From: Macrolepiota albuminosa
Taxonomy: Eukaryota > Basidiomycota > Agaricomycetes > Agaricales > Agaricaceae
Assembly (NCBI GenBank): GCA_027475525.1
Contig: JAMWFC010000091.1
Coordinates: 124,001-188,000, forward strand
Direction: 5' to 3'
Length of the DNA stretch: 64,000 nucleotides
Numbering within the stretch: the first letter of the stretch is position 1; the number at the start of each line of letters is the position of its first letter. The notes beneath the pieces are model-generated. The model was not told the origin of the DNA. It ran no database searches and worked only from the letters and a program-made list of their open reading frames with translations. The position numbers were made by a program, and so were the translations under genes. Below are positions 6,156 to 61,042 of the stretch, one piece after another.

Positions 6156-7106
6156 TGATAGGACCCCATACAGGTTAGGCGCATCAACGGCAGGCTCGGC
6201 ACCGGCTCCGGAAACCTTGCCGCACTCGTTCCGAACTTAGCGCACGCGTTCTACCCATTTTAAGCCATTTCTGACGGCCGCGCACGGCAAGAAGCAGATC
6301 CAATCAATGATAGCGCCGACGGCAGCAAGAATGACAACTGACAGATGGCATCAGTCACTGACGACAGCGCTTAGCGAGAAGCTTGATGATCTATCAAAAA
6401 CTGACGGACAGCTTGGCGTTTGACCTTGGCGTCTGACACCGCTTACCGTCTCGATTTGGCGCCCAACGTCGCTTAGGTGTTCTGACAGACAGAAGGGTGA
6501 TGGAGTGATGGTTTAGTACCGCGATCTGCCGCCTGGTGGCGCCAAGGGTCCTCAAAGGACGGTAGGGATCTGAAACCGTTGGAGCTACCCCTTTGAAATT
6601 TTCCAGTTTACCGCACTCTGGCGTCATTAGCCACTGGCGACGGCAAACTCATTGTAGTATAAAAGTACTTACCGACTTGTACATAGAAGAATAGCAGACG
6701 AATAGACCACAGTTTCCCCCTTACTTCAGTCTCCCTTACGCTCAAGAGCTCATTTACGCTACGGTCGGCAACGTCAAAACTCATCGGTAGTTACAGACGT
6801 TCGCCAACACTCGACATACTCGCGCCTTGCAACTACGGCAGGCATTATCGACGCTTAGAACCTCGCTAAGCTTATCGTGCTCTTGCCGCTCACCCTTGCC
6901 GTGTTCACTTACCGCATTTCCTTAGGCGCTTTACCTTAGCGCTTACCACTTGCCGACCCCGTTACCGACTTTTACCCTTTTTCACAGACGCGTTCTCTGG
7001 GACCTGCCCGGGACTCCTCAACACACTTATAGCGCGCCCAACGCACACTCTTGGTTAGGTAACACTTTAGCTACATTTGTTACTGACCAAACTTTGGGCG
7101 TCATCA
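6156..7106 (+). repeat. G2 5' LTR (951 bp)
   Basis: It has TG...CA ends and is near-identical to 16531-17481. A TATA box TATAAAAG lies at 6658-6665, so transcription probably starts near 6685-6695, giving a U3 of about 530 bp. Short ORFs inside it are not conserved coding sequence. Confidence 0.95.
6658..6665 (+). promoter_or_regulatory. TATA box of G2 LTR
   Basis: TATAAAAG lies about 500 bp into the LTR, a standard place for the Pol II promoter of an LTR element. The 3' LTR has the same box at 17033-17040. Confidence 0.6.
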
Positions 7107-7109
7107 AAT

Positions 7110-7126
7110 TGGAGCCCACCGCGAGG
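7110..7126 (+). promoter_or_regulatory. G2 primer-binding site
   Basis: TGGAGCCCACCGCGAGG starts 3 nt after the LTR. Its complement ends in CCA, as expected for pairing with a mature tRNA 3' end; I do not assign the tRNA. The decayed relative at the window end has the same site at the same 3-nt spacing with one CpG transition, which supports its function. Confidence 0.75.
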
Positions 7127-7486
7127 GATCTCTAGGGCAGAATTCCGCCAGAAACCCGTCTCCAGCGTAGGCGCCGCCTGCTAGACCAGTCGGCAGAAGG
7201 CATAGCTCCTTCCCACCCATCAACTCCACAACCACCTGGTGCCTTACCGGGTCTCTCTCTAGCCCAGGAACTACAGAACGCCACTGTAGACGCTTTTCCT
7301 GATCTCTTCCCGCACTCCCTCGATTATAGTGCCGACGACCCCTTAGCGTCGCCCTTTACCGTACCGCAGTCAATCACTCCCATTACTCCGCTAACGCCTC
7401 TTTCTCAACTCATTTCGCTTACCCCGTCGCCAATCTCCAGAACTCCTTCCCCACTACCGCTAACCGAACTCGCCAACACAGTCGCT
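7127..7486 (+). other. G2 untranslated leader
   Basis: About 360 nt between the primer-binding site and the gag ATG, pyrimidine-rich near its 3' part. I see no conserved ORF in it. Packaging signals of such elements usually lie here, but none can be recognised by sequence. Confidence 0.5.
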
Positions 7487-9799
7487 ATGGAACAACAAGT
7501 TCAGCGCATGCCGCCACGCAACCACTTCTCGGCACCGAAATGGGACGAGACCAAGCCACGGGAGCTCTCCCAGTATTTCAAGGAGTTGGAGTATTTATTC
7601 AGAGACTGTAACATTACCGACCACACGCAGATGAAGGAGTACGCGGCAAGATACGTATCGTACGACACGGCAGAGACTTGGACTGGTCTTTCCGAGTTTG
7701 CAGCGCTCGTTCCCGCCACGCCGACAGCTCCCGCCCAAGGCGCTTCGTATGAGGACTGGAAGACAGCAGTGATCCAGCTGTACCCTGGCGCTGAGGAGGC
7801 TACCCGATACACGGTAAACGAGTTACAGAAATTAGTTCAGGAATCTTTCGACAACGGCACTTCTTCTCTTGGCGCATTCTCTACGTATTACCGCGAATTC
7901 CAGAAAATCGCTAGGTGGCTTCTGCAGAACGGCAAGCTCTACATTAACGAGGAGCGTCGCCTATTTCAGCAAGGCATCCCGACTTCATTGTGGACTCGTA
8001 TTGCTCGTCGCCTAGAGATAGTTCACCAGGCTCATCACCCAGACGAGCCCTATAACGTTGCCGACGTCTTTGAAGCCGGTAAATGGGTTCTTAAGGGAAC
8101 GGACACTGGCGTTGGACTGCAACGCGCTAGGATGAGCCCACCCCCTGAGCGAACTAACGGTATCATTCCCATCCCGCCTCCTGTTGCCGACTTCGTTAAG
8201 AAAGAGGAGCTCAATGCTGCTATTACCGCCGCTGTCGCTTCCGCGATGACACGTATCGAAACTATGATTACCACCAACCTGACTGCTAACCGACCCGCTA
8301 ACGTACCCGCACCTGGCCCTTGCCACTTCTGTGGGGAAATTGGCCACACCATGACTAGAGGACGCTGCGCTACCCTCGAGAATTACGTTCGCCAAGGTAG
8401 AATTCGACGAGCTATCGACGGCAAGATAGTCCTCACCACTGGCGCCACCATCCCCAACTACCCAGACAAGAAGTCCTTCCAGGAGCGGGTAGATGAATGG
8501 CATAGGCGCAACCCAGGACAAATCGTTACCGGCACGCTATCTGGCAACGCTAACCCCGACCCCGAACAGGCGACCCAACAGCAGATGATTCACGAGGTCC
8601 TACATTTCGACAGCGTTGGCGACCACCCTACTTTTTCGCGGGAAGAGCGTATCGCCAAGCTGCAGCAGGAATTAGATTCGCTAAAGAACCAGGTCTTTGA
8701 TGGGGTTGAAGTTAAGCAGCCTAAACAACCTCTTAAAGGATACAAGCCGATGCCTCCCGCTAGCAAGTTACCGGCACCTGCTCCTGCCGCACCTCCTGCC
8801 ACTGCCCCTGCTCCTGCTCCAGAACCCTCGTCGTCCGCTACCGCTCCCGAACCGCCCTTGCCGCCTCTCCATCCCTACTCAGGGATTCCCGACCGTTATC
8901 ACGCTCCCACACAACGAAACTTTGCCGCTCCCGAGAAACGTCCTGAGGGTGGCTACCGACCTACTGCGCCAATATTCGATATCGAGAAATCCAACCACGT
9001 CTTTAACCGCATCATGAAAACCAATGTTACCTTATCAGTAGAAGAGCTTTGTAGTATTGCTCCCGACGTCCGCAACCAAGTCAAGACGGCAGTCACTCCC
9101 CGACGACCCTTGGCGACAGCTGTTGCCGAGGTTGACGAACTCGATGACGCGCTTCCTGGTTTCTCTGTTACCATCGACCCTCCCGACACTGAAGACACTC
9201 TTGCCGACCCCATCGCTAACGCCACCTCTGTGGACCCAGTGGAGACCTATCTTAGGTCAGTCGACCACGGCGAAGACCCGGCAATCCTTACCGTCGCCCA
9301 AGAATCACACGCTATCCGCTCGGTAGCGCTAACCGTAGACAACAAGCACGAAGTAGAGGCAATCGTGGATAGCGGGTCTCAGATTATTTCTATGGCAGCA
9401 GAAGTCGCTAATGATCTAGGCCTCATTTACGACCCTACGGTGATACTAAACATGCAGAGCGCTAACGGTACGGTAGACAGATCCCTCGGCCTCGCCAAGA
9501 ATGTGCCATGCACCCTTGGCGACATTACCTTTTACCTCCAGATACACATTTTACGCTCCCCAGCATACGACTTATTACTCGGCAGACCTTTTGACGTCTT
9601 GGCGCGATCAGTCGTCAAGACAGTTACCGACGAGGAAACGACCCTCACAATTAGCGACCCCAACTCCGGAATCCGACGAACGGTGCCAACGTTCCCTAGG
9701 GGACAACGAAAAGGCGCCCGCGCTAAGCCCCCGGAGTTTACCGACCAACACGCCAACGAGCCTCCCCACCGGTGTTTTCACAGACCATCGAGGAGGTGA
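7487..9799 (+). CDS. G2 Gag with fused aspartic protease
   Basis: This 770-aa ORF makes the capsid/nucleocapsid polyprotein with a C-terminal retropepsin. The N-terminal 200 residues form a Gag-like helical capsid region. A zinc knuckle variant CX2CX4HX6C occupies residues 279-294 (C279, C282, H287, C294), with six rather than the usual four residues before the last Cys. A Pro/Ala-rich linker follows at about 410-480. The protease active site is VDSGSQ (D628), with the distal LLLGRP near 690. The ATG at 7487 gives MEQQVQRMPP, which the decayed relative G2' also encodes. Pol follows in the -1 frame. The protein assembles cytoplasmic particles and cleaves the polyprotein. Confidence 0.93.
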   Translation: MEQQVQRMPPRNHFSAPKWDETKPRELSQYFKELEYLFRDCNITDHTQMKEYAARYVSYDTAETWTGLSEFAALVPATPTAPAQGASYEDWKTAVIQLYPGAEEATRYTVNELQKLVQESFDNGTSSLGAFSTYYREFQKIARWLLQNGKLYINEERRLFQQGIPTSLWTRIARRLEIVHQAHHPDEPYNVADVFEAGKWVLKGTDTGVGLQRARMSPPPERTNGIIPIPPPVADFVKKEELNAAITAAVASAMTRIETMITTNLTANRPANVPAPGPCHFCGEIGHTMTRGRCATLENYVRQGRIRRAIDGKIVLTTGATIPNYPDKKSFQERVDEWHRRNPGQIVTGTLSGNANPDPEQATQQQMIHEVLHFDSVGDHPTFSREERIAKLQQELDSLKNQVFDGVEVKQPKQPLKGYKPMPPASKLPAPAPAAPPATAPAPAPEPSSSATAPEPPLPPLHPYSGIPDRYHAPTQRNFAAPEKRPEGGYRPTAPIFDIEKSNHVFNRIMKTNVTLSVEELCSIAPDVRNQVKTAVTPRRPLATAVAEVDELDDALPGFSVTIDPPDTEDTLADPIANATSVDPVETYLRSVDHGEDPAILTVAQESHAIRSVALTVDNKHEVEAIVDSGSQIISMAAEVANDLGLIYDPTVILNMQSANGTVDRSLGLAKNVPCTLGDITFYLQIHILRSPAYDLLLGRPFDVLARSVVKTVTDEETTLTISDPNSGIRRTVPTFPRGQRKGARAKPPEFTDQHANEPPHRCFHRPSRR

Positions 9800-12700
9800 T
9801 TGGCGACGATCACGGAGATGTAGCGCTAACGCTGGAATATGACCATTCAACTGGTCTTGTAAATATTATATCTACCGCTTATCTTGACGAAGAAGTTTTG
9901 CTTTCCTCTACCGTTACCGACGCTGAGCTTTCTCAGAAAAACCCAGATATTACCGACTCAGCTCTAGCCTACTTGTACCTTACCGCTTCTGAATCATTTC
10001 AAAATATTGCGTCTACCGATACGTATCTCACTACCCTTCCCGGAGCCTCGTCTCCTGCCGTTCTTGGACTTGCCGCACCCCAGGCTACAGTTCCCCTTTC
10101 CACCTCTGTTTATAACCAGGCTAACGCTCCCAAAAGGAAAGGGGTTCAAGTTAAAAAGAAATATAAGCCAGTTGCGCTTAAAACAAAACCCATCGCTACG
10201 CACTCTCCCGAGACTTTCAGAATTGAGCGCCAGATCATTGGCGACCCTCTTGCCGACATGCCGGCCTTATCACCGAATCCGCCACCCTTTCAGCCCACAG
10301 GACGTTTTACCAAGGAACGCCAACAGCAGTTCGCCAAGGAGCACGACACAGGATTTTTGACCAAAGATGAGTTGAACGTCCTTACCGATCTTGTCGCTAA
10401 GCAAGACAAAGCCTTTGCTTGGGAGGACTCCGAACGCGGCAGTCTACGTACAGATTTCTTCCCGCCTGTCGTCATCCCGACCATCCCCCACGTGCCGTGG
10501 ACTGAGCACAACCGACCGTTACCGCCTGGAATCGAAGCCGAGGTCTGCCAGATTATTAGGACTAAGATACAGGCTGGCGTCTACGAGCCCTCTAATAGTT
10601 CTTACCGCTCCCGTTGGTTCTGTGTTCTCAAAAAGAACGGCAATCTACGCATAGTTCACAGTCTTGAACCGCTGAATAGAGTCACCATACGACACTCTGG
10701 CGTACCGCCTTTCCCTGACCACTTTGCCGAGTCCTTTGCCGGGCGTATCTGTGGCGCCACCCTTGATCTTTACGTTGGCTACGATGAGCGCTTGATTCAC
10801 CCTTCTTCCCGCGACCTCACTACGTTTCAAACTCCGTTTGGCGCACTGCGCCTAGTCACCTTACCGATGGGCTGGACAAACTCAGTCCCCATATTCCATG
10901 ACGACATCACATTCATCCTCCAACCCGAGATACCGCATAACGTCCTTAGCTTCATCGACGATGTTGGCGTCAAAGGCCCCAAAGACTGGCGACTCGTAAA
11001 CGGCTTACCGGCAACCCATCCCGAGAACTCCAACATTCGCTTAGCGCTATGGGACTTTTTCCAGCTGCTCAATCGAGTTCTCCAGCGTATGAAGTATAGC
11101 GGTGGTACGTTTAGCGGTCACAAACTCCTCCTATGCGCGCCAAGGTTCAAGATACTTGGTCACATCTGCACTCCCGACGGTCGTGTTCCCGACGAGTCTC
11201 GCTTAGCACTCCTAGAGTGCTGGGGTCCTTGCCGCGACTTATCTGAAGTTCGCGCCTTTCTTGGCACCGTTGGCGTTCTTAGGATATTCGTCAAAAACTT
11301 TGCCCATCGCGCACACGCCCTTAACCGACTCACCCGCGCTAACGAGCCCTTCGAATTTGGGCCAGACCAGGTCACTGCCCAACGCGACTTAGTAAAAGCT
11401 CTGCAGGACGCCAAGCCCCTAGTCCCCATCGATTATACCTCTGCCGACCCTGTTATCTTGGCGGTGGACACCTCGTACATTGCCGTTGGCTACTTCTTGT
11501 GCCAATGCCTTAGCGACAATCGAAAACAGCGACGCTACAACCGCTTTGGGTCTATCACGCTTAACGACAGAGAGTCTCGCTACAGTCAGCCTAAGCTGGA
11601 GCTTTATGGACTCTTCAAAGCCTTCCGGTCGCTAAAGATGTATTTGATTGGCGTGTGCAACCTTATTGTTGAAGTCGACGCTAGGTACATCAAAGGCATG
11701 CTGCAGAATCCCGACATCCAGCCATCCGCTAGTATGAACCGGTGGGTAGTCGCCATCCTCATGTTTCACTTTGAGTTGGTACACGTCAAGAGCTCCTTCC
11801 ACGGACCGGATGGACTTTCTAGGCGACCACGGCAGCCTGGCGACCCGGTAGTGGACCCTCAGGCTGATAGCGATTTCGAGGACTGGGTCGACCGACTACA
11901 TGGTTTCGTGCACCTCATACAACAACCGATTCCCCTACTACGACGGCAACAGCCTACCAGCATATTTTTGCATCCCATTGTCTCTTACCGCCCCGAGACC
12001 TTTAGCGCACCCTTCACATTCTACACGGCAAGCATTTTCAGTCAAAATTCGCCTCCAGTAAAAGTCGTACAAGAGCCCCATCCGCTAAGAGAAGACAGTA
12101 GAAACCTGACCTACGATGCCGTTCCCCGATCCGCCAAGGCAAAGGCGGAAGATAGTCGCTTGTTGGTAGTCGAGCAATGGATACAAGACCTTAAGCGACC
12201 CCCAGACCTTACCGACGAACAATACGCTACCTTTATCCGCTATGCTACCCATTTCTTCTTTACCGACAACCGACTTTGGCAACGAAATCGAGATGGCGCC
12301 CACAAGCTGATCATCAAGCCAGAAGGTCGCTTACGAGTCTTGCGCGCTATGCATGACGAGCTAGGACATAGAGGTCTGTACGCTACCCGAGCTTCTCTGC
12401 TAGAACGATTTTGGTGGCCACACGCTAGCGCCGACATCGCCTGGTACATCAGGACCTGCCACCTCTGCCAAATCCAACAGACACGCCAAGTGCTCATACC
12501 GCCAACCGTTGCAACGCCAGCTCCACTCTTCAGCAAAATCTACGTCGACACCATGCATATGCCCAAGTCTGGTCGCTACAAGTACATCATTCAAGGTCGT
12601 TGTTCGCTAATCCACTGGCCTGAATTTCGAATGCTTCAAAGAGAAAATACCGATGCGGTCGCCAAGTGGCTATTTGAGGACGTCATTTGCCGTTGGGGAG

Positions 12701-13521
12701 CGCTAAGGGAAATCGTCACGGATAACGGTGCGCCCATTATCAAAGCGCTAACCTATCTCGCCAAGAAGTACAACATTCACCACATTCGAGTATCTGGCTA
12801 CAACAAGCGCGCCAATGGCCTGGTAGAGAGACCACACTTTGACGTCCGGCAAGCTCTCTTCAAGGCGGTCGATGGCGACGAGGCTCGTTGGAGTGAAGCG
12901 ACATATTCAGTATTTTGGTCGGAAAGAGTTACTATTCGTAAGCGCATGGGTTGCTCTCCCTATTACGCGGCTACTGGCACCCATCCTTTACTCCCTGCCG
13001 ACATCATAGAAGCGACCTACCTTCAGCCAGCTCCCAACAGCATCTTAGCGACTACCGATCTTGTCGCCAGACGAGCTATTGATCTCCAGCGAAGGAAAGA
13101 AGATTTAGAGCGACTCCACGAGGTAGTCTTTAGCGCCCGTCGCCAAGCAGCCCTACGATTCGAAACCGAGCATAGCGCTACCATCAAAGATTACAACTTC
13201 CCGAGAGGAGCGCTAGTGCTCATGCGCAACTCCAAAATCGAAACCTCTTACAACAAGAAAATGCGCCCTCGCTATCTAGGACCTTTGGTAGTTATCTCCC
13301 GTAACCGTGGAGGCGCTTACGTGCTCTGTGAATTAGATGGTTCAGTACTACATCGACCTGTTGCCGCTTTTCGCCTATTACCGTATCTCGCCAGAGAACA
13401 AATCGACTTGCCGCTTGAAGCGCTAGATATCGACACCGCCAAGCTGAGAGAACTTGAAGAAACCGAACTATTGGACGATGATGACTTGCCGACTTTAGTT
13501 GAAGAAGAAGAAAACGATTAG
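9727..13521 (+). CDS. G2 Pol: RT, RNase H, integrase
   Basis: The pol frame is open from 9727 (after an in-frame TAA) and overlaps gag by 73 nt in the -1 frame. No canonical slippery heptamer is evident in the overlap. Numbered from the GTG at 9772 it is 1,249 residues. RT: NLRIVHSLEPLN near 286-297 and FIDD at 394-397 in place of the usual YxDD. RNase H begins at about LAVDTSYIAVGY. The integrase has an HHCC zinc region (CHLCQ near 12461) and catalytic D926, D984 and E1019, with Asp-Glu spacing of 35. The C-terminus has a GPY-like YLGPLVV but no chromodomain. All catalytic residues are present, so the protein looks functional. It copies element RNA and integrates the cDNA. Confidence 0.93.
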   Translation, partial: APGVYRPTRQRASPPVFSQTIEEVIGDDHGDVALTLEYDHSTGLVNIISTAYLDEEVLLSSTVTDAELSQKNPDITDSALAYLYLTASESFQNIASTDTYLTTLPGASSPAVLGLAAPQATVPLSTSVYNQANAPKRKGVQVKKKYKPVALKTKPIATHSPETFRIERQIIGDPLADMPALSPNPPPFQPTGRFTKERQQQFAKEHDTGFLTKDELNVLTDLVAKQDKAFAWEDSERGSLRTDFFPPVVIPTIPHVPWTEHNRPLPPGIEAEVCQIIRTKIQAGVYEPSNSSYRSRWFCVLKKNGNLRIVHSLEPLNRVTIRHSGVPPFPDHFAESFAGRICGATLDLYVGYDERLIHPSSRDLTTFQTPFGALRLVTLPMGWTNSVPIFHDDITFILQPEIPHNVLSFIDDVGVKGPKDWRLVNGLPATHPENSNIRLALWDFFQLLNRVLQRMKYSGGTFSGHKLLLCAPRFKILGHICTPDGRVPDESRLALLECWGPCRDLSEVRAFLGTVGVLRIFVKNFAHRAHALNRLTRANEPFEFGPDQVTAQRDLVKALQDAKPLVPIDYTSADPVILAVDTSYIAVGYFLCQCLSDNRKQRRYNRFGSITLNDRESRYSQPKLELYGLFKAFRSLKMYLIGVCNLIVEVDARYIKGMLQNPDIQPSASMNRWVVAILMFHFELVHVKSSFHGPDGLSRRPRQPGDPVVDPQADSDFEDWVDRLHGFVHLIQQPIPLLRRQQPTSIFLHPIVSYRPETFSAPFTFYTASIFSQNSPPVKVVQEPHPLREDSRNLTYDAVPRSAKAKAEDSRLLVVEQWIQDLKRPPDLTDEQYATFIRYATHFFFTDNRLWQRNRDGAHKLIIKPEGRLRVLRAMHDELGHRGLYATRASLLERFWWPHASADIAWYIRTCHLCQIQQTRQVLIPPTVATPAPLFSKIYVDTMHMPKSGRYKYIIQGRCSLIHWPEFRMLQRENTDAVAKWLFEDVICRWGALREIVTDNGAPIIKALTYLAKKYNIHHIRVSGYNKRANGLVERPHFDVRQALFKAVDGDEARWSEATYSVFWSERVTIRKRMGCSPYYAATGTHPLLPADIIEATYLQPAPNSILATTDLVARRAIDLQRRKEDLERLHEVVFSARRQAALRFETEHSATIKDYNFPRGALVLMRNSKIETSYNKKMRPRYLGPLVVISRNRGGAYVLCELDGSVLHRPVAAFRLLPYLAREQIDLPLEALDIDTAKLRELEETELLDDDDLPTLVEEEEND

Positions 13522-13950
13522 AAAAGAATATTATTGATAAGCTCCTTTTTCTATTACTTACTTTACTTATCTTGCTTGCCGATACTTACTATACTATATT
13601 CAACAGACATTTTCTTACATAGTCAAGCCGCAGCGCTAGCGTGTCGTCAACGCTTAGCGCATTGCGCAACTCTCGCCAGGGGTTTTTCGCCATGATGATT
13701 TACTGAGCGTTCCCCTTTTCTCAAAAATTTGTCTAAGTCCCACACCTACTACTCCTCTTGCTAAAACTTACTTTAGAATACTTACCGCTTGCTTTCTCTT
13801 TGCTTTACTTTCTTGGCTCTCTGCTGTTGCGCTAACTTAGGTTTTGGGACTTAACCTTTCACTCGAAAAAGAGGCGGCAAGAAAATAATATATGTAGACG
13901 GTAACAAAAAGAAAAATTTACATAAACGGCCTATCTACGCTAAGGTCCGT
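13522..13950 (+). other. Intergenic stretch between convergent pol and antisense gene
   Basis: About 430 nt, A/T- and pyrimidine-rich, with no supported ORF. It would carry the 3' end signals of the antisense transcript, since the antisense gene stops at 13951. Confidence 0.5.
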
Positions 13951-16361
13951 TTACTCGCTAACGTCGTCCATGGAGAGAGAATCGTCAGAAACCGGCAACG
14001 AAGAGTCGCGAAGGGGGAGAAGGTCGCCAGGAAGAATGTTGTTGGCCGCTTGCCAATCCATGGCTGCTTGGCAATCCCCCTGGTAATCGCGAAGTACGCG
14101 AAGGCTGCGACCCAGATTGGAGTAACGTAACCTTAGCGCCATCAATTGACCGCGGACTCGTTCCCGCTCCCGACCCATTGCTGCCTCCATCGTTGCCGCC
14201 CTACTTGAGAACCTCTCCAGCATCTCCCGTGGGTTAAGTGCCACCACCGGGTACACGAGGTCTTGTCCCAGCCACTGGAAAGCGTCGCCAGTAACCGTCG
14301 GCTCCGGCTGAGGGGTCCAGGCAGGATTGACCCTGGCGACCACGGGGTGCCTAGGCTCCAGGCCGGCAACGTCCTCGGGATCTGACACCTCCCAGGGGGC
14401 AACGTTACCGTAAGGCGGTAGCCACCGCCACTGAGGCTCCTCCCGGGCGACTTCTGCCGCTGCCTCCCCTTCTCCCTCTACTTCTGCCGCTACCGCCTCC
14501 TTGGCGGGGGCCTCCTCCTCGTCACCTTCGCGCTGGGTCGCCAAGGTCTCGTCTGGCTCCCCATCTGCGTCCTCGTCGCCAGCCATTGCCGAGGGGCTCC
14601 CTTCGCCCCTTGGTATCGCCACTATCGGTCCCGCCTCCTGAGGCTCTTCCCTTGGCGGCGGGTCCATTACCGCGTCGTCCTCGTCAGCGGCCGGCAGAGA
14701 AGGCCCCCTCAGGTGAATGGGAGAGAGCAACTTACTTGGCCCAGCCTCCGAGTCCCTGACCGGTAGGCGACTGGCAGCAAGCGCCTTCTCCAGCTCCTCC
14801 ATCTCCACGTCCTCGGGGGTAGGGGGAGGAGATTCTACTACCCGCGCACGTTTGGCCTTGCCCTTCCCCTTGGCGGGCGAAGGGACTTGTCGTTTTGAAG
14901 GGACCGTAGTCCCTTGGCGCTCTCCAGCGCCACGGTTGCCGACTGTTGCAGACTCGTCCCCTTGACGCGTCGGCAGCGCCAGGGAACTCTTACTAATCGT
15001 CGCCGCGTCGCCAGCGGCCTGCTTCTTCCTTTCCTCCTCAACGAACTCCCGCGCTCTCTTGACCAAGACGGCACGCTTAAAGGTCCGCTCCACTACCGCG
15101 TCGGGAGCCCCACCGCGTTCACGACTCTTGGCGCCGTCCAAAGTGCAAGCTCGTTTTAGCGTCCCGCACCGGTAACAGGGCTGGCCACCGGTGGGGTACC
15201 AACACCCCTCTGGGTCGTTGTCGGCCCAGCACTTATCGCACTACAGAAGTGTTAACAGACGCGGTAAGAAGAGCTACAACACTTACCGCTCCTTGGGAGT
15301 CCTTGAACTCCCGTCTTGCCGCCGGACTTGCCGTCTTCTTGTCCTTCATCTCCGGCAAGACCACCCCCGCCTCCATTCCTCCATCCAAAACCGCCTCATC
15401 TCGTCGTGCCACCAACAAACCCTTCAGCTCTGCGTCGCTAAAGGAAGTTTGCGTTGGCGCCTGTCAAATGGTTGGTTAGCAAGGAAAGTACCTTGGCGCA
15501 ACGAACTTACCGTGTAACGAGGGGCGGCAGCCTTACGAGACTGAGAGTGGGATAAGCAGAAGTCGCCAGCGGTAAGAACCCTCAAACTTACCTTCTTTTT
15601 CAAAGTCTTGCCAGGCTTGACCGGAGAGCCCGATTTGCTTGCCGGCAGTGCTGGGCTCTGGGCACTACCGGCGCGGGAATCCTTCACATCAGACATCTGT
15701 CTCCTGGCAACTGGCGACTTCTCGCTAGCAACCAGGGACTCGCCAACGACCTCTCGCTCCTCCAACGCCTTGGTCCTCTCCTTGGCGTCACGGGAGGCCT
15801 CTTCTAGCACGCTCTCGCGAATTGCCGCCATCTCGGCGTCCACCTGCAAATTGGCAAGAGGCGCTAACACCTCTTGTTTGCTATGGGGAGACAGATCAGA
15901 CCACAGCTAAGTTAGAAAGTACAGTTAGAGATACTCACTCAGGCGCTGGCGCGCTTACCGTCATTGGCAAGGCGCCAGAGAGGATGTCCTCCAGTTCGTC
16001 CTCAATGGTTGGAACAGGAGGAGGCGCCTAGGAACCCAATCAGCTAGCGACACGGCAAGAACTAGAAGCTACTTACAAATCGAGCATAGGGCGCTAGCCA
16101 CTCTGCGCCACGATGATCCAGGTACCGCGACCGGCACCACTCCCGAACCTCGATTTCGCGATCCCATCCCACGCCAAGAACGCGCACCTCCAGCCACCGC
16201 TCGTACAGCTTCATGACGGCAACCACCAAATTTACTGGCGCGTCCGCGCCAACGCCTTCGATCCGCTTAAGAAAATTGTTCGCCTTTTCGATATAGGCCG
16301 AGGCGGCGTCTTGAGCCTCACGGGAGGGAACAGGTGGCGGAGTTGGAATGCGGAAAGACAT
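13951..16361 (-). CDS. Antisense six-exon gene inside G2 (720 aa)
   Basis: I do not recognise this family. Six exons on the minus strand (16361-16077, 16027-15959, 15906-15592, 15540-15511, 15460-15287, 15240-13951) join into one 720-aa frame. The five introns are 49, 52, 51, 50 and 46 nt; all are GT-AG, all are phase 0, and donors are GTAAGT (four) or GTAAGC (one). CTAAC or CTGAT branch-like motifs are visible in several. The N-terminus is helical (MSFRIPTPPPVPSREAQDA). A Cys cluster CX2CX8CX8CX2CX6C lies at residues 292-323. Then come basic segments (GKGKGKAKRARV), a long acidic Glu/Ala-rich region and a C-terminal coiled-coil-like stretch (EMLERFSS onward). Basic patches and the Cys cluster suggest a nuclear, possibly DNA-binding protein; that is inference. 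The gene opens 170 nt from the 3' LTR, which may supply its promoter. Confidence 0.85.
15241..15286 (-). other. Intron 5 of the antisense gene
   Basis: A 46-nt GT-AG intron, GTAAGTGTTG at its start and CTTCTGTAG at its end on the minus strand. Removing it joins ...SQGA to CDKCW, completing the first CX2C pair of the Cys cluster. Without splicing a TAG closes the frame. Confidence 0.8.
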
Positions 16362-16518
16362 TTTATTTTAATTGAGCGCCAGGAAAAGATGGGGAGGAGA
16401 AACGAAGTCCACACTCATGCGCCAGGACTATAAACCAAATCTCAAGAACGCACGGGCCACTTGTCACAAAAACGGTAACGGTAGCCTTATTTGGTGACTG
16501 AGGACAGTCAATTTTTCA

Positions 16519-16530
16519 GTTGGGGGGAGA
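16519..16530 (+). promoter_or_regulatory. G2 polypurine tract
   Basis: TTGGGGGGAGA immediately precedes the 3' LTR, the place where plus-strand DNA synthesis is primed. Confidence 0.85.
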
Positions 16531-17481
16531 TGATAGGACCCCATACAGGTTAGGCGCATCAACGGCAGGCTCGGCACCGGCTCCGGAAACCTTGCCGCAC
16601 TCGTTCCGAACTTAGCGCACGCGTTCTACCCATTTTAAGCCATTTCTGACGGCCGCGCACGGCAAGAAGCAGATCCAATCAATGATAGCGCCGACGGCAG
16701 CAAGAATGACAACTGACAGATGGCATCAGTCACTGACGACAGCGCTTAGCGAGAAGCTTGATGATCTATCAAAAACTGACGGACAGCTTGGCGTTTGACC
16801 TTGGCGTCTGACACCGCTTACCGTCTCGATTTGGCGCCCAATGTCGCTTAGGTGTTCTGACAGACAGAAGGGTGATGGAGTGATGGTTTAGTACCGCGAT
16901 CTGCCGCCTGGTGGCGCCAAGGGTCCTCAAAGGACGGTAGGGATCTGAAACCGTTGGAGCTACCCCTTTGAAATTTTCCAGTTTACCGCACTCTGGCGTC
17001 ATTAGCCACTGGCGACGGCAAACTCATTGTAGTATAAAAGTACTTACCGACTTGTACATAGAAGAATAGCAGACGAATAGACCACAGTTTCCCCCTTACT
17101 TCAGTCTCCCTTACGCTCAAGAGCTCATTTACGCTACGGTCGGCAACGTCAAAACTCATCGGTAGTTACAGACGTTCGCCAACACTCGACATACTCGCGC
17201 CTTGCAACTACGGCAGGCATTATCGACGCTTAGAACCTCGCTAAGCTTATCGTGCTCTTGCCGCTCACCCTTGCCGTGTTCACTTACCGCATTTCCTTAG
17301 GCGCTTTACCTTAGCGCTTACCACTTGCCGACCCCGTTACCGACTTTTACCCTTTTTCACAGACGCGTTCTCTGGGACCTGCCCGGGACTCCTCAACACA
17401 CTTATAGCGCGCCCAACGCACACTCTTGGTTAGGTAACACTTTAGCTACATTTGTTACTGACCAAACTTTGGGCGTCATCA
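16531..17481 (+). repeat. G2 3' LTR (951 bp)
   Basis: Same length and ends as the 5' LTR, one difference seen. Followed by CCAT, the repeat of the bases in front of the 5' LTR. Confidence 0.95.
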
Positions 17482-54850: not shown

Positions 54851-54954
54851 AGCTAAAGAACCAGAGCACCTCAAGGGCTGAGAATAGTACTAACAGATAG
54901 TGTTGAAAGAATAGAAACAGTAAAATGAAATAATGTCAGAAGAAATAAGAGAAT

Positions 54955-55489
54955 TGTTTAGTGGTTTGAGGCTATGGACTATGCACAGGTTGCCATTTTT
55001 TTTTGAGGATACAGAATCATTGGAAGTGGTAAGAGCTGTTGGAGGGTTTGTAGACACCAGCCTGGATCTTGGTTCTAATGATTTAGCAGACCTTGGCTTC
55101 AATTTCTGGTGGTAATGGTCTATTTTTGTGCTCTGTCCATGGCACATGGAGAATGGTTGGAATTATGACAGGCAGGAAGAAATCTGTATAGAGGCTGCCA
55201 CATTCTGAATCTTCCCAAGCAAAAGCTTTGTTTTGCTTAGCAACAAGATTGGTAAGAACATCCAACTCATCTTTGATCAAGAACCCTGTATCATGCTCCT
55301 TAGCAAACTGTTGCTGGTGTTTGGTAGTAAAATGTCCCATGAACTGAAAGGGTGGTGGATTTGGTGATAAGGCTGGCATGTTGGCAAGCAAATTGCCAAT
55401 GATCTGGTGCTTGATTTGAAAGGTTTCAGGAGAGTGTATGGCAACTGGTTTTGTTTCAAGAGCAACAGGTTTGTATTTCTTTTTGACTT
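54955..55489 (-). pseudogene. G2' pol fragment (decayed relative of G2)
   Basis: The minus strand encodes MPALSPNPPPFQ, QQQFAKEHDTGFL, AFAWEDSE and KKNGNLCIVHSLKPLN, corresponding to G2 pol at about 10258-10680. It continues from 61043 across the C2 insertion (TSD GACTT 55485-55489). The copy stops near 54955, inside the RT, where unrelated sequence begins. Frameshifts and stops are present. Confidence 0.9.
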
Positions 55490-55841
55490 TGTTGGAACTG
55501 GTACCGGCTAGTTACAGGTGGATCACACCTAGATCAGATACATGTAAGTTATAATCCTCAGTTGTGTATAAACCAAACTGTGTTGTAAGTACCTAGATCA
55601 GATACACGTAAGTTATAATCTAGGTACGCTTTTAGTGAGTATTGTGCATGTAATGTGAGTTTATGTGCAACGTACCCTCAGTTGTGTATAAACCAAACTG
55701 AGGGTACTTTGCGTGAACGTAGACTATATGTATGTGTGCGGACAAAGCAGTGTAGTGGCCGGGTGGCCAGGTCAGTGCTCAATGACCATTGTTCGTGTAC
55801 TTATCACACTGGTCACATTATGACCTCATTGATTCCCAACA
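55490..55841 (-). repeat. C2 3' LTR (352 bp)
   Basis: Same as 60691-61042 except for about two bases. It has the same two-module plus two-hairpin design. Confidence 0.95.
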
Positions 55842-55890
55842 CTCCTCCTTACCACGAACCGATGGTCATTCTCCTCCTCGCATGGAGTCA

Positions 55891-57645
55891 TCAGCAGAGC
55901 CCGAGGATGTGCCGCAGTCGAAGGAAGAGTGGTTTGGGCAGGGCCTTCGTGAATAAATCAGCGACGTTGTCCCGCATGTTGACGTACTTTATAGTTATTT
56001 CTCCCATCTGGGCCCGCTCACGGATAAAGTGGTATTTAATGTTGAAGTGTTTTACCCTGGTGTGTGACGTTGGGTCTTCTGACAGCGTGATTGCAGCTTT
56101 GTTGTCGCAGAATAGAGTCGTGGGTTGCGTGGTGAAGTCCCAGCCAATCTCTTTCATTAGCGTTTGTAACCAGATGCACTCCTGTGTGGACTCGTAGATG
56201 GCCATGTACTCAGCCTCACAGGAGGAGCTTGCAACCGTCTTCTGCTTCTTGACAGACCACGAAACGGCCCCGGTGCCTAGGGACCAGGCGTATCTGCCGG
56301 TGCTCCTCCTGGTGTCCAGGCAGCTTGCCCAGTCGGCATCAGTGAACCCCCACAATACAGTTGAAGGACCCCCGAGCTGCAGCTTTAGGTCGCTTGACCC
56401 TTTGAGGTACCTGACCAACCGAATGCCTGCGTTCCAGTGGGTCCTGTCGTAATTATCTAGGAATTGGGATAACTGTTGGACAGAGTAGGAAATGTCGGGT
56501 CGGGTCGCTATCGCGATGTACAGGAGGCATCCGACTAGCGACCTATAGGGGAGTTTGGCAATGTCGTCGCGTTCGCTTTGTGTCTGGAGGTCTTGTTTCG
56601 GTCGTCTCAGCTTTAGGCCAGGTTCCATGGGGAGTGACAGGGGGTGTGCATCCTTTTGCCCGAACTGTTGTACTACGCGGTTTATGAATGCCGTCTGCGA
56701 CAAGGACACGGTTTTGTTGCCACGATCCCATTTGACTGAGACACTGACGAGGTATCTGGGCGTGCCCAAGTCTGAGATGCTCCACGCTTTGCGCATTTGA
56801 CTCTTGAAGCAATTGTTCTCCTCCTTAGAGCTGGCTATGGACAAGAAGTCGTCGACGTGGACGGCTGCTATTACTGTGCTGGTGTGCGACTTCCTGTAGT
56901 ACATGCAGGCTTCACATGCGAGTCGAGCAAAACCCCATGCCTTCATGCGCTTGTTGAGTGTCTGGTTCCATATCTGGCCAGCTTGTTTCATGCCATAAAG
57001 TTCCTTAACAAGTTCACATACCCAGTCCTCCCTTCCTGCTTCTTTGAAGCCGTCCGGTTGTTCCATATATTGTACCTCGTTGTCTGGCAGTATGCCGTAC
57101 AGGAATGCTGTCTTAACGTCAATCTGTGTGGCGTCCCAGCCTTCCGTTGCGGCGATGTGCAGCAGGATCCTCCACGACTCCATGCGTGCTGTCGGGAAAG
57201 TGGTTTTATTGTAGTCTTTTCTGTAGATTTGTTCATACCCCTTAAAAACTAGGCGCACCTTGTACCGTGAGGGGTTCCCATGTTCGTCTCGTTTGATTTT
57301 GAACACCGGGCGTCCTTTTCGAACTTTGTGTCCTTTCGGGACAGCTAAGCGGGGTACAAGTCGGTATACGCCCATGTCCTTTAGGGATTTGAGCTTGTCA
57401 CGGTACGCTTCTTCCCATCTCGACGCATCTGGCCCTTCCTGTGCTTCCTTCCATGTTCTGGGCTCCTCCTCAGTTCCAAGGGGGAGGGGCTCGATGTCAC
57501 CAATTTGCGATATTGCTGCCAGGACGCGGTCAGGATCGATCTCGATTTCAGGTCCATGATTTGTGGGCATGGGCGCTTGTCCGGTGGCTGTGTGTGGCTG
57601 TGATGGTAATACCTCCTCATTCTGTCCTCTCGCCGCTCTCTCCAT
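55891..57645 (-). CDS. C2 reverse transcriptase and RNase H
   Basis: A 584-codon open frame with the copia RT and RNase H. RT: WKEAQEGPDASRWEEAYRDK, DVKTAFLYGIL, ELYGMKQAGQIWN and the catalytic VHVDDFLSIA (about 56840-56870). RNase H: GFTDADWASCLDTRRSTGRY, SSCEAEYMAIYE, FCDNKAAITLSEDP and a final FTKALPKPLF. The frame is intact from the nominal Met at 57645 to the stop at 55891, 50 bp from the 3' LTR. It is the C-terminal part of a Gag-Pol polyprotein rather than a free gene; the upstream link (57646-58095) contains stops. Confidence 0.92.
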   Translation of the reverse strand: MERAARGQNEEVLPSQPHTATGQAPMPTNHGPEIEIDPDRVLAAISQIGDIEPLPLGTEEEPRTWKEAQEGPDASRWEEAYRDKLKSLKDMGVYRLVPRLAVPKGHKVRKGRPVFKIKRDEHGNPSRYKVRLVFKGYEQIYRKDYNKTTFPTARMESWRILLHIAATEGWDATQIDVKTAFLYGILPDNEVQYMEQPDGFKEAGREDWVCELVKELYGMKQAGQIWNQTLNKRMKAWGFARLACEACMYYRKSHTSTVIAAVHVDDFLSIASSKEENNCFKSQMRKAWSISDLGTPRYLVSVSVKWDRGNKTVSLSQTAFINRVVQQFGQKDAHPLSLPMEPGLKLRRPKQDLQTQSERDDIAKLPYRSLVGCLLYIAIATRPDISYSVQQLSQFLDNYDRTHWNAGIRLVRYLKGSSDLKLQLGGPSTVLWGFTDADWASCLDTRRSTGRYAWSLGTGAVSWSVKKQKTVASSSCEAEYMAIYESTQECIWLQTLMKEIGWDFTTQPTTLFCDNKAAITLSEDPTSHTRVKHFNIKYHFIRERAQMGEITIKYVNMRDNVADLFTKALPKPLFLRLRHILGLC

Positions 57646-58095
57646 CCTCGTTTCCTTTACTCTTTGTTCCCCCTCCCTTACCTCCTCTATAATCTCGTCG
57701 AGTCACGTCGGTGCTCTGCCTCCATTGGCGGCGGCTTTCTCTGTGGGTTGGCGGATCCTCGTTGATCTCCTTAGCGCCGGTTGTTGGGGTGCATCGTCGT
57801 CTAGCTGTGGTTGCTCCAATGCTGCGACTGGGTTAAAGGCTGTAGTTTTGAGCTCACCAAGGTCGTTGTCATATTCCTGAGGGGTTGTAGACGCAGATTT
57901 GTCGAGGTCATCTAGAGTGGGGATTGAGGGTGCATTGCTGTCAGCAGTGGACTGTGTGGGTTGCTTCAGCTGTTGTGACTCGTGTTTCTCAATGAACTTA
58001 ACGTGGTAGGTTTGGAAAACCTTATTTTCGCGTCTGTTCCAGCATCAATATGTTTTAGAGGTCAGTCCATATCTGATTAGGACACATTCGATGGA
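57646..58095 (-). pseudogene. C2 linker between integrase and RT
   Basis: Acidic, Gln/Pro-rich and containing RRSTRIRQP (about 57740-57770), as is usual for the spacer between integrase and RT in copia elements. Stops at about 58093, 58036 and 57705 interrupt the same frame as the RT or a neighbouring one. Confidence 0.75.
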
Positions 58096-58923
58096 TCACG
58101 GCTGTAGTTTGGGATTGTGAGTTAGGATCAGTACAAATGCGCGGCACCCAATTTCTCGCATGTAGGAGTAGTCAGGTTTGCGTCCGAACCATTTTTCGTA
58201 AGGGGTCTTTCCTCCAAGTGATTTGGTGGGTGTCTTTCCGTGTAAATGCGTCGCGGTCAAGTAAAACTCATCCCAAAGGTAGTCCGGACACTTCGACTCA
58301 ATCCTCATTGTCCTCGCCTTCCCCATGAGTGTCCGATGCATTTGTTTGACGCGTCCGATATGTGCCAATGTATAGGGTGCGCCTCGCTCCATCTGGATTC
58401 CTCTTGTTGCGAGCCAATTTTCCATTTTGCTGCTGTTTAGTTCCCCATCGAAGCCGGTTCTATATTTACCGACCCTCAGCCCAGCTTCATTCTTGTGGGT
58501 CTTTTCCCATGTCTTTAGTGCAGCGAAGGCGTCTCCCTTGGTTTTAAGAGGGATGGACCAGGGCATGTTGGTATAATCGTCTATGATGTCTAATACATAG
58601 TGGTTTCCTGATCTTGAGCGTACATTCACAGGTCCCATCAGGTCCACCCACACAATCTCAAGCTTTTGCGTCGCTCTTCTCCCTTCCTCCCGTGTCTTTG
58701 GAACTGACAATCGTGTCTGTTTCCCAAGGATACACGCGTCACATTTAGGTGGGGGCTGGTGAGGAAGGGAGGGCGCATCTTTGATCCTTTGATCGCGGGT
58801 TAACTGGAGGATCGCTTGATAATTGGCATGGCCCAGGCGGCGGTGCCATGTCTCCATGTCTGCTGCCTGGTGGACGGTATAGGCACGTTCGATTGCGGCG
58901 TGAGAGAGATTGATTGTATACAC
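58096..58923 (-). pseudogene. C2 integrase (catalytic residues altered)
   Basis: It has the GAG-pre-integrase zinc region (WHRRLGHANYQAI; CDACILGKQTRLS) and an integrase core starting IVWVDLMGPVN. The second Asp position, normally RTDNGGE, reads RTGFDGE. The Glu position, normally GRVER or GVAER, reads IGRVKQM. Both catalytic positions are therefore changed, the latter by what would be two G-to-A changes on the coding strand. The integrase should be inactive although the ORF is open. Confidence 0.85.
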
Positions 58924-59400
58924 CCTTTTCTTTAATCAGTGGGCCATCGGCGACGACGCCGTTTGTGCGGCGATCCACAATTTGAACTTCTTGGTTATCA
59001 AAGCGTGAGTACGTGTCGTTGTTTGTGGAGATGCGGCTGACGGAGACCAGGCAGACAGTGGAGTTTGGCACATATAGTGCTCTCTCTAGTGTGACCCACG
59101 CTCCTTTAGAGGTGTGCAGCTTTATGCATCCGACTCCCTGGGCTGAGATTGTTGATCCCCCTACCCCTTTTATGGCTTTAGGGGTGATCGGCTGAAGTGT
59201 GACGAAGTCGGAGCGGTATGGAGAAATGTGGACAGTGGCTCCAGAGTCAATAAAGAATGGGTGTTCTGTGGCAGTGATGAGGGCGACGTCAGGGTCATTG
59301 TTGGCACTCTTTGAGTTCTGATTTCAGTCGATCGAAGTTGATATCTCCTCCTGTACAACGGTGGCCATCCAGCCTTCCCATTCGGTGTCATCAACGGAGG
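58924..59400 (-). pseudogene. C2 protease region
   Basis: The minus strand reads HPFFIDSGATVHISPYRSDF (protease active-site DSG, about 59210-59265), then GGSTISAQGVGC and YVPNSTVCLVSVSRI. These pieces alternate between frames, so at least two frameshifts separate Gag from integrase. Confidence 0.8.
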
Positions 59401-60432
59401 ATGTGGATGGTAGTGTGTCTGTGGCTAGGCCAGCAAAACCTGCTGGGGCGGGAGCGCCGCTCAGGGTCTGCAGTTTACCAAGGTCGCCTTCCTCCACTAG
59501 ATAGACCTTGCCCTGCGGACCTGTCAGCTGCATGTAGACCTTTGTGGCAGCAGCAGCTGTCTGCTTCTGACCTTGGCCAGCCGCCACAGCATGAGCAGTG
59601 CCGACGCCCAACTTTTCCATGGCCCCACCTGGGTAGGTGCAGAATTGAGCATCATGCCCTGCGCAGGGTCGTCCCCGGGTGGCACACGTGGCGCAACACT
59701 TCACGCCCATGGGATGATTGTGCCCTGAGAGCCAAGGCTTGTTGGATTGGAATCGACCTTTTGTAGTGGCGGCAAGGGCGGTGTCCGTGGTTAGTTTTGT
59801 ACCGTCTCGAGGAGCTTCCTGATGTGATCGGAGCTGTAAGGGTGGTCCTTGGTTGCATCGGCAAGACCGTGGGAGACTTGGGCCTGAATAGGCTCGTACT
59901 GGGGGCCGTTGAGACAGTTCAAGAGAATAACGCACTTGAACAGGTCTTTATCGAGTGCTTGAATGGAGAAAATGCGGTTGACGATATCGCAGATCCGTCT
60001 GGCTGTTGCCGGCAGGGGTTCGGTGGGGGAGCACTGGATCTTCAGTACTTCCTGGATCAGGGTAATCATCCTGACAGGGCCCTCTCCCTCCGCGCGGGTC
60101 TTGACCTGACCATAGAGATTCGCGGCGGTCTTGGTTTCATCCAGACCATCGTACTCACAGTCGTCTAGGGCTGTTAGTATGACGGCGTGCGCAAGGTCAT
60201 CATTTAGGCACCAGTTCTGGTACGCGACTGGTGCAGTTAGAGCACTCGGAGGTGAGATGAGGGGTTCGAATATGTAGGGCTTTAAGCCGAGCAAGGAAAG
60301 ATGAATCTGGAGGTCCTTTGACCACTTGGAGAAGTTCGCGGTCGCAGAGTTCCTGTTGAACTTGTCGTGTTTCCAGTCAGCTCCACGAATGGAGATCGTG
60401 TGAATAGAGGGGGCGGCGGCGTCAGTGGGCAT
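59324..60432 (-). pseudogene. C2 Gag
   Basis: The ATG at 60432 opens a 213-codon Gag (NFSKWSKDLQIHLSLLG; QNWCLNDDLAHAVIL; YGQVKTRAEGEGPVR). It stops at 59791 and must shift frame to continue in 59935-59324. The second frame holds a Cys-rich motif CCATCATRGRPCAGHDAQFC, unlike the usual CX2CX4HX4C knuckle. The frame change at about 59800-59930 is either an inactivating indel or programmed; C2 has other indels, so the former is more likely. Confidence 0.8.
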
Positions 60433-60789
60433 ACTTCAAGACAGCTGGGGGGGGTCGGCGTTCAGCTCATAGAAAACAACGGTGATCTTATCTGTCCGGA
60501 TCGGGGCAAGACAAGGGGCGAGACAAGATGTCCCTGGCTGGAGACAAAAGGACGGATGGCAACTCCGTACAGCACAGTCCGACGCAATTGGCGTCGTGTC
60601 ACAAAGAAACAAGGGGGAGGTGGGCACGCGTTCCAACGAGCAGGTGGTACTTCGTCAAGTATTCTTCTGCTCTAGCAGCAGCCCATAACCTGTTGGAACT
60701 GGTACCGGCTAGTTACAGGTGTATCACACCTAGATCAGATACACGTAAGTTATAATCCTCAGTTGTGTATAAACCAAACTGTGTTGTAA

Positions 60790-60828
60790 GTACCTAGATC
60801 AGATACACGTAAGTTATAATCTAGGTAC
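60790..60828. repeat. C2 LTR hairpin 1
   Basis: GTACCTAG (60790-60797) pairs with CTAGGTAC (60821-60828). Left arm plus loop (60792-60820) repeats 60728-60756 exactly. Confidence 0.9.
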
Positions 60829-60872
60829 GCTTTTAGTGAGTATTGTGCATGTAATGTGAGTTTATGTGCAAC

Positions 60873-60908
60873 GTACCCTCAGTTGTGTATAAACCAAACT
60901 GAGGGTAC
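60873..60908. repeat. C2 LTR hairpin 2
   Basis: GTACCCTCAG (60873-60882) pairs with CTGAGGGTAC (60899-60908), the same stem as hairpin 2 of the solo LTR but with a different loop. The inner part repeats 60757-60780. Confidence 0.92.
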
Positions 60909-61042
60909 TTTGCGTGAACGTAGACTATATGTATGTGTGCGGACAAAGCAGTGTAGTGGCCGGGTGGCCAGGTCAGTGCTCAATGACCATTGTTCGTGTA
61001 CTTATCACACTGGTCACATTATGACCTCATTGATTCCCAACA

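Follow-up and report, generated by a model that had tools for sequence, protein, structure and literature searches.

The window analysed here, a stretch of 64,000 nucleotides, raises the question of how a retrotransposon could carry a protein-coding gene interrupted by introns, and what such a gene might do for the element. A sequence-only reading had placed an intron-bearing gene on the antisense strand of a recently inserted gypsy element, and the structure of the gene, the LTRs of the element and further copies in the genome all support that placement.

The antisense gene and its host element

An 11.3-kb Ty3/gypsy element occupies 6156..17481 on the plus strand, as delimited by LTR comparison, and CCAT flanks it at both ends. 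The same comparison placed its 951-bp LTRs at 6156..7106 (5') and 16531..17481 (3'), both on the plus strand. They have TG...CA termini and differ by a single mismatch (6467/16842), so the earlier count of one difference in 951 bp, and with it the recent insertion, was borne out. A purine tract lies ahead of the 3' LTR. The two sense frames on the plus strand are both open: a gag and aspartic protease frame of 770 aa (7487..9799; DUF4100, gag-asp_proteas) and a pol frame of 1249 aa (9772..13521; reverse transcriptase (RT), RNase H and integrase). Pol residues 255-673 match the sequences of solved Ty3 RT/RNase H structures, and residues 828-1043 match those of PFV integrase. The element is assigned to Ty3/gypsy by its LTR pair with short flanking repeats and by a Ty3-related RT and RNase H that precede the integrase. 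The Pfam RT and integrase core models were absent among the matches to 9772-13521 at E values up to 10. Because these models missed a frame that the Ty3 RT and PFV integrase sequences match, the pol is diverged, and it is paired with a DUF4100 gag.

Between pol and the 3' LTR, recomputation from the sequence gave exactly the minus-strand gene first described, with six exons that encode 720 aa plus a stop codon. Exon 1 (285 nt, 16077..16361) opens with a start codon at 16361 and is followed by intron 1 (49 nt, 16028..16076), exon 2 (69 nt, 15959..16027; its length is equal in the distant locus L050), intron 2 (52 nt, 15907..15958), exon 3 (315 nt, 15592..15906), intron 3 (51 nt, 15541..15591), exon 4 (30 nt, 15511..15540), intron 4 (50 nt, 15461..15510) and exon 5 (174 nt, 15287..15460). 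Intron 5 (46 nt, 15241..15286), whose position is also shared with L050, ends immediately ahead of the first cysteine of a six-cysteine core. Exon 6 (1290 nt including the stop, 13951..15240) encodes this core, a disordered acidic part and a C-terminal helix. The length of every exon is a multiple of three, and all five introns are GT-AG, phase 0 and 46-52 nt long; the junction pairs given in the earlier reading (e.g. 15240/15287) are the exon bases that flank each intron. On the sense strand of 13522-16530, the frames contain 25-29 stops apiece, and the longest open run is 134 codons.

A related gypsy element lies on the minus strand at 54944-63671, with about 73-79% identity in gag and early pol. 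It is interrupted by an insertion with 300-bp repeats at 55490 and 60691, and the antisense gene was not found in it.

Copies in the genome and coding constraint

A search of the 100.1-Mb genome (129 contigs) with 14000-14400 of the window as query returned at least 40 full-length places at 86-100% identity among the best-scored candidates. This sample of 40 copies, the window's own and 39 others, was thus selected for its resemblance to a single part of the gene. The sequence-only reading had looked to other copies for conserved exon frames, and the frames are kept. The whole structure is retained in 26 of the 40 copies, which have a start codon, GT-AG borders at all five introns, every exon in frame and a length of 713-730 codons. 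The other 14 are broken (L013, L018, L019, L021, L022, L025, L028, L030, L031, L033, L034, L035, L042 and L043). In eight of these (L013, L018, L028, L031, L034, L035, L042 and L043) the last exon contains a tandem duplication of 77 bp. L015 and L041, which we counted as whole, have a 77-bp duplication that overlaps the start or stop region.

The length of these duplications is not confined to the gene. All 44 exact tandem duplications detected in L009-L050 (22 of 42 loci; periods of 40-199 searched) have a period of 77 bp, as do both window duplications, at 1672 and 28705. Because every period is exactly 77 bp, we suspect that the duplications that break the frame in these copies reflect an assembly fault with a 77-base overlap.

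L022 contains 100 N and was excluded from modelling. Five GT-AG introns of 46-55 nt were present in 37 of the 39 modelled copies, the exceptions being L013 and L028; L025 has a displaced donor at intron 2. No intronless copy was found among the 39, which is what one would predict if splicing never removes the introns from sense RNA. Because the gene lies antisense, its introns would go unrecognised in the sense genomic RNA and would pass through reverse transcription intact. The earlier claim that antisense placement protects the introns therefore stands as far as their persistence is concerned, and its reason is one that we infer as well. The element family may be considerably larger than this sample: when up to two mismatches were allowed, a 25-base motif next to the polypurine tract was counted 738 times and its reversed control not once, which suggests several hundred element ends in the genome.

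To measure constraint, we compared 12 whole copies that are less than 97% alike. The dN/dS test that the sequence-only reading had proposed found constraint in 66 of 66 pairs (0.08-0.19, median 0.13; Nei-Gojobori), with dS among copies of up to 1.5. Read in the other two antisense frames, the same letters gave median dN/dS values of 1.81 and 1.94, with stops present, and the sense frames gave 1.56, 0.26 and 2.10, with stops present in each. The sense frame with a value of 0.26 is the one whose third positions mirror the third positions of the antisense gene. Among the six frames, no stop-free and constrained frame other than the gene's own was found. Third codon positions are the most variable in every one of the six exons, and indels in the copies come by codons. 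Constraint is weakest in exon 4 (30 nt; pN/pS 0.59) and exon 3 (pN/pS 0.40). The introns, with splice signals removed, show about half the divergence of synonymous sites. On the copy comparison, dN/dS, the frame controls and third-position variation, the antisense gene is real and protein coding beyond chance, with its splicing predicted.

We considered whether the antisense RNA, and not a protein, is the functional product, controlling the element through double-stranded RNA. Retroelement antisense transcripts can act in this way, according to the text available of one source (PMC7264820). Coding constraint that survives the frame controls and indels that come by codons contradict RNA as the sole function, which makes this reading very improbable; an additional RNA role may exist beside the protein. 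The 40 copies in one genome show that a retroelement can keep a multi-intron protein gene under long selection by antisense placement.

Age of the gene and exchange of its parts

The sequence-only reading had further described a normal host gene transmitted recently with the element, and this part of it is not supported. A recent capture of a host gene by the window's element would agree with the youth of that element. It is contradicted by the presence of the gene in the 39 other copies and in nine loci further removed, and by dS of up to 1.5 under strong constraint, and we give it next to no credence. Three of the distant loci (L048, L050 and L056) encode a protein core only 42-47% identical to both core types of the closer copies (types A and B, below). 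In L048 and L050 the gene adjoins pol on the opposite strand, with about 85% identity across most of the pol end; no LTR resembling the window's was found in either locus, and no pol match was present in the stretch of L056 examined. The gene likewise adjoins pol on the opposite strand in L051-L055. L050 keeps the intron after exon 1, the 69-nt exon 2 with the intron that follows it, and the intron just ahead of the first core cysteine, three positions matched by eye at this single locus. Because dS is so high and a distant element type carries the gene with matching introns, we regard it as an old, diversified accessory gene of the element family and not as a recent capture.

Three protein searches returned 11, 15 and 37 homologues, all from the agaric genus Termitomyces, to which the fungus that carries the element is probably related; in the searches that gave 11 and 15, only the 7996 candidates sharing most words were scored. 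The predicted Termitomyces proteins have the N-terminal region and the core in common, and also the C-terminal region where they are complete.

Divergence is distributed unevenly along the element. When the window copy was compared with 16 others in 200-base steps, pol was 87-100% identical (L048 lower, at 65-76%) and the start of the LTR 80-100% identical where covered. Within 14500-15900, 13 loci whose cores are of other types were 53-74% identical to the window copy, against 82-100% over most of the stretch in three type-A copies. Grouped by core, the 39 copies (L022 excluded) comprise 15 of type A, including the window's, and 24 of type B, with a nucleotide difference in the core of 12% within types and 35% between them. 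Further core types are found in L049 and L054, which are about 71% and 66% identical, respectively, to A and B alike.

The difference between types is concentrated in the centre of the gene. Nearly all columns that separate A from B fall in 14450-15980, and we define an exchanged central cassette at 14470..15960 on the minus strand, with approximate edges, which is of type A in the window copy. In the LTR, the upstream block and exon 1, the difference between types does not exceed that within types. The C-terminal block differs by 15.8% between types and 13.6% within (0 of 1000 shuffles as large), and pol by 6.5% and 6.1% (31 of 1000 shuffles as large). Median dS is 0.94 in the gene and 0.23 in the last 400 codons of pol for the same 36 pairs from nine copies, and we found no clear correlation between the two (rho 0.24, p 0.15).

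In a core tree of 20 copies, type A forms a single clade with support of 100. This clade was rejected by trees of exon 1 (p 4e-24) and of the C-terminal block (p 1e-42), each from 20 copies, and was not rejected by pol (p 0.32, 19 copies) or by promoter/LTR (p 0.65). Since the pol and promoter/LTR trees do not reject the core clade and pol differs slightly by core type, tree conflict establishes exchange within the gene, and topology does not establish it between gene and pol. From these sequence comparisons we conclude that parts of the gene, chiefly the central cassette, were exchanged between element lineages. The window copy is itself a recombinant: among 12 copies it is closest to L011 for pol, core and C-terminus, but to L014 for exon 1 and promoter/LTR.

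Template switching between co-packaged RNAs would be a plausible route for such exchange, and gene conversion in the genome may be another. Joins made by the assembler may also produce a mosaic in single copies, but the recurrence of the pattern over many copies argues against them. An antisense gene of this kind can be the most diverged and most reshuffled part of an otherwise uniform element, which makes the element well suited to studying the carriage and reshuffling of additional genes by mobile DNA.

Putative product, precedents and upstream region

Five of the six core cysteines are invariant in an alignment of 30 rows (A3), and the sixth is nearly so. Their spacing is C-x2-C-x8-C-x8-C-x2-C-x6-C. 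The fungal Zn2Cys6 cluster (PF00172) follows the pattern C-x2-C-x6-C-x5-12-C-x2-C-x6-8-C, from which the core departs in its first loop, two residues too long; the remainder fits. In 13 and 28 homologues, no match to the PF00172 profile was obtained at E values up to 10. DUF3716 was considered as a domain and set aside, with best E values of 0.12 in 2 of 13 homologues and 1.1 in 1 of 28, neither significant. The protein matched none of the PDB sequences searched.

For the homologue P0001, the predicted structure is of low overall quality (mean pLDDT 56). It contains long helices at 125-195 and 541-603, mostly of high confidence, a helix behind the core (358-387) and an N-terminal helical part of lower confidence. 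The core is poorly modelled in both structure predictions, and because it is not confidently folded, DNA binding receives no structural support from them. Basic stretches, such as KGKGKAKRAR, can be read off the sequence. Taken together, the features of the protein would suit a regulator: its N-terminal part is helical, a helix comes after the Zn2Cys6-like core, basic stretches and a disordered acidic region are present, and a long helix lies at the C-terminal end. We therefore favour, as somewhat the better bet, a spliced antisense accessory gene whose product is a nuclear DNA-binding regulator of the element. This would be the most economical reading, and a nuclear regulatory role like that of HBZ (below) is our best guess.

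The same spliced gene could instead encode a protein that brings the integration complex into the nucleus or directs it to chromatin, with no part in transcription. Such a role has been proposed for plant antisense ORF proteins, in the text available (PMC7264820), and the basic stretches and coiled-coil-like helices would suit it; we consider it unlikely, though still worth weighing. A protein that counters host silencing, through small RNA or chromatin, as the sequence-only reading suggested, seems to us slightly less probable again. The core is strongly diverged between copies under constraint, which is compatible with an arms race, but dN/dS is low throughout (0.08-0.19), repeated amino-acid change was not seen, and Pfam searches of the 13 and 28 homologues gave no significant match, known silencing-suppressor domains included.

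Zhao et al. 2011, by its title, reportedly concerns an additional antisense gene in Boty. Antisense ORFs between pol and the 3' LTR have been described in the plant elements Grande, RIRE2, Retand and PvRetro13 and in Boty of Botrytis, and what such accessory genes do is named as an open question, in the parts available of PMC7264820. The present gene fits this kind, termed aORF-3R, by position and conservation, since its coding region runs antisense in the interval from pol to the 3' LTR and most copies keep it under constraint. The nearest fungal likeness is Boty/BcGypsy1 of Botrytis cinerea, also a gypsy element with an antisense gene, brtn, between pol and the 3' LTR (PMC7264820; gene name in PMC8365987 and PMC4227169). 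Boty, however, is an ascomycete element with a chromodomain, and brtn is likened here by description only (PMC4227169, as available).

Among the plant aORF-3R elements (Grande gene23, RIRE2, Retand and PvRetro13), Retand shares a putative DNA-binding domain with our reading of the present gene, and nearly all Retand clusters carry an antisense ORF with such a predicted domain (PMC7264820; PMC11963269, main text). The plant proteins have TRP28 and SMC-type domains in these accounts, in contrast to the six-cysteine core here; the main text of PMC11963269 makes no mention of introns, and exchange of diverged cassettes is undescribed in the plant accounts as available. The deltaretroviral HBZ and APH genes lie antisense at the 3' end, have spliced transcripts and encode mostly nuclear proteins that damp the 5' LTR (PMC10186651, as available). 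HBZ belongs to the bZIP proteins and has its start in the 3' LTR, whereas the present gene has five introns within the coding frame and gave no significant Pfam match. Grande, Retand and HBZ are precedents for antisense products that are nuclear or bind DNA. Among open-access titles and the beginnings of abstracts, we found no description of an intron-bearing antisense gene in a fungal retrotransposon. In the part of the literature covered, a multi-intron frame with conserved intron positions, the six-cysteine core and the exchange of diverged cassettes appear to be new.

If the product is a regulator, the central cassettes could be specificity alleles, with the regulator of each type recognising its own class of element; we hold this to be a long shot. 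Were it true, elements of different types would escape mutual repression, like phage immunity types, recombination would spread a new type over a successful gag-pol-LTR backbone, and the intron-bearing antisense gene would carry the specificity. Discrete core types within one genome would allow a direct test of which type acts on which elements. As candidate cis sites, columns 16472 and 16456 alone are strongly linked to type in the upstream region. They read T/C in 15 of 15 type-A copies; among the 24 type-B copies they read C/T in 21 and T/C in L014, and L013 and L028 are unaligned there. These columns are a weak lead, as the B letters also occur in L049 and L054, which are of other types, and the A letters in L052, whose core is B-like.

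The gene would probably be transcribed from a start of its own on the inner side of the 3' LTR, where the upstream block (16415..16530, minus strand) is a candidate promoter. Among 12 copies this block shows 97% identity and the LTR stretch beside it 95%, a difference too slight to serve as proof of a promoter. The upstream sequences of L048, L050 and L056 are alike with the window over just the 43 bp or so that adjoin the LTR. A perfect inverted repeat (TGACTG-AGGA-CAGTCA, 16495-16510) lies beside the polypurine tract, and the roughly 43 bp around it are 95-100% identical in these three loci, whose upstream regions otherwise differ. The repeat is a possible binding site, or possibly a part of plus-strand priming.
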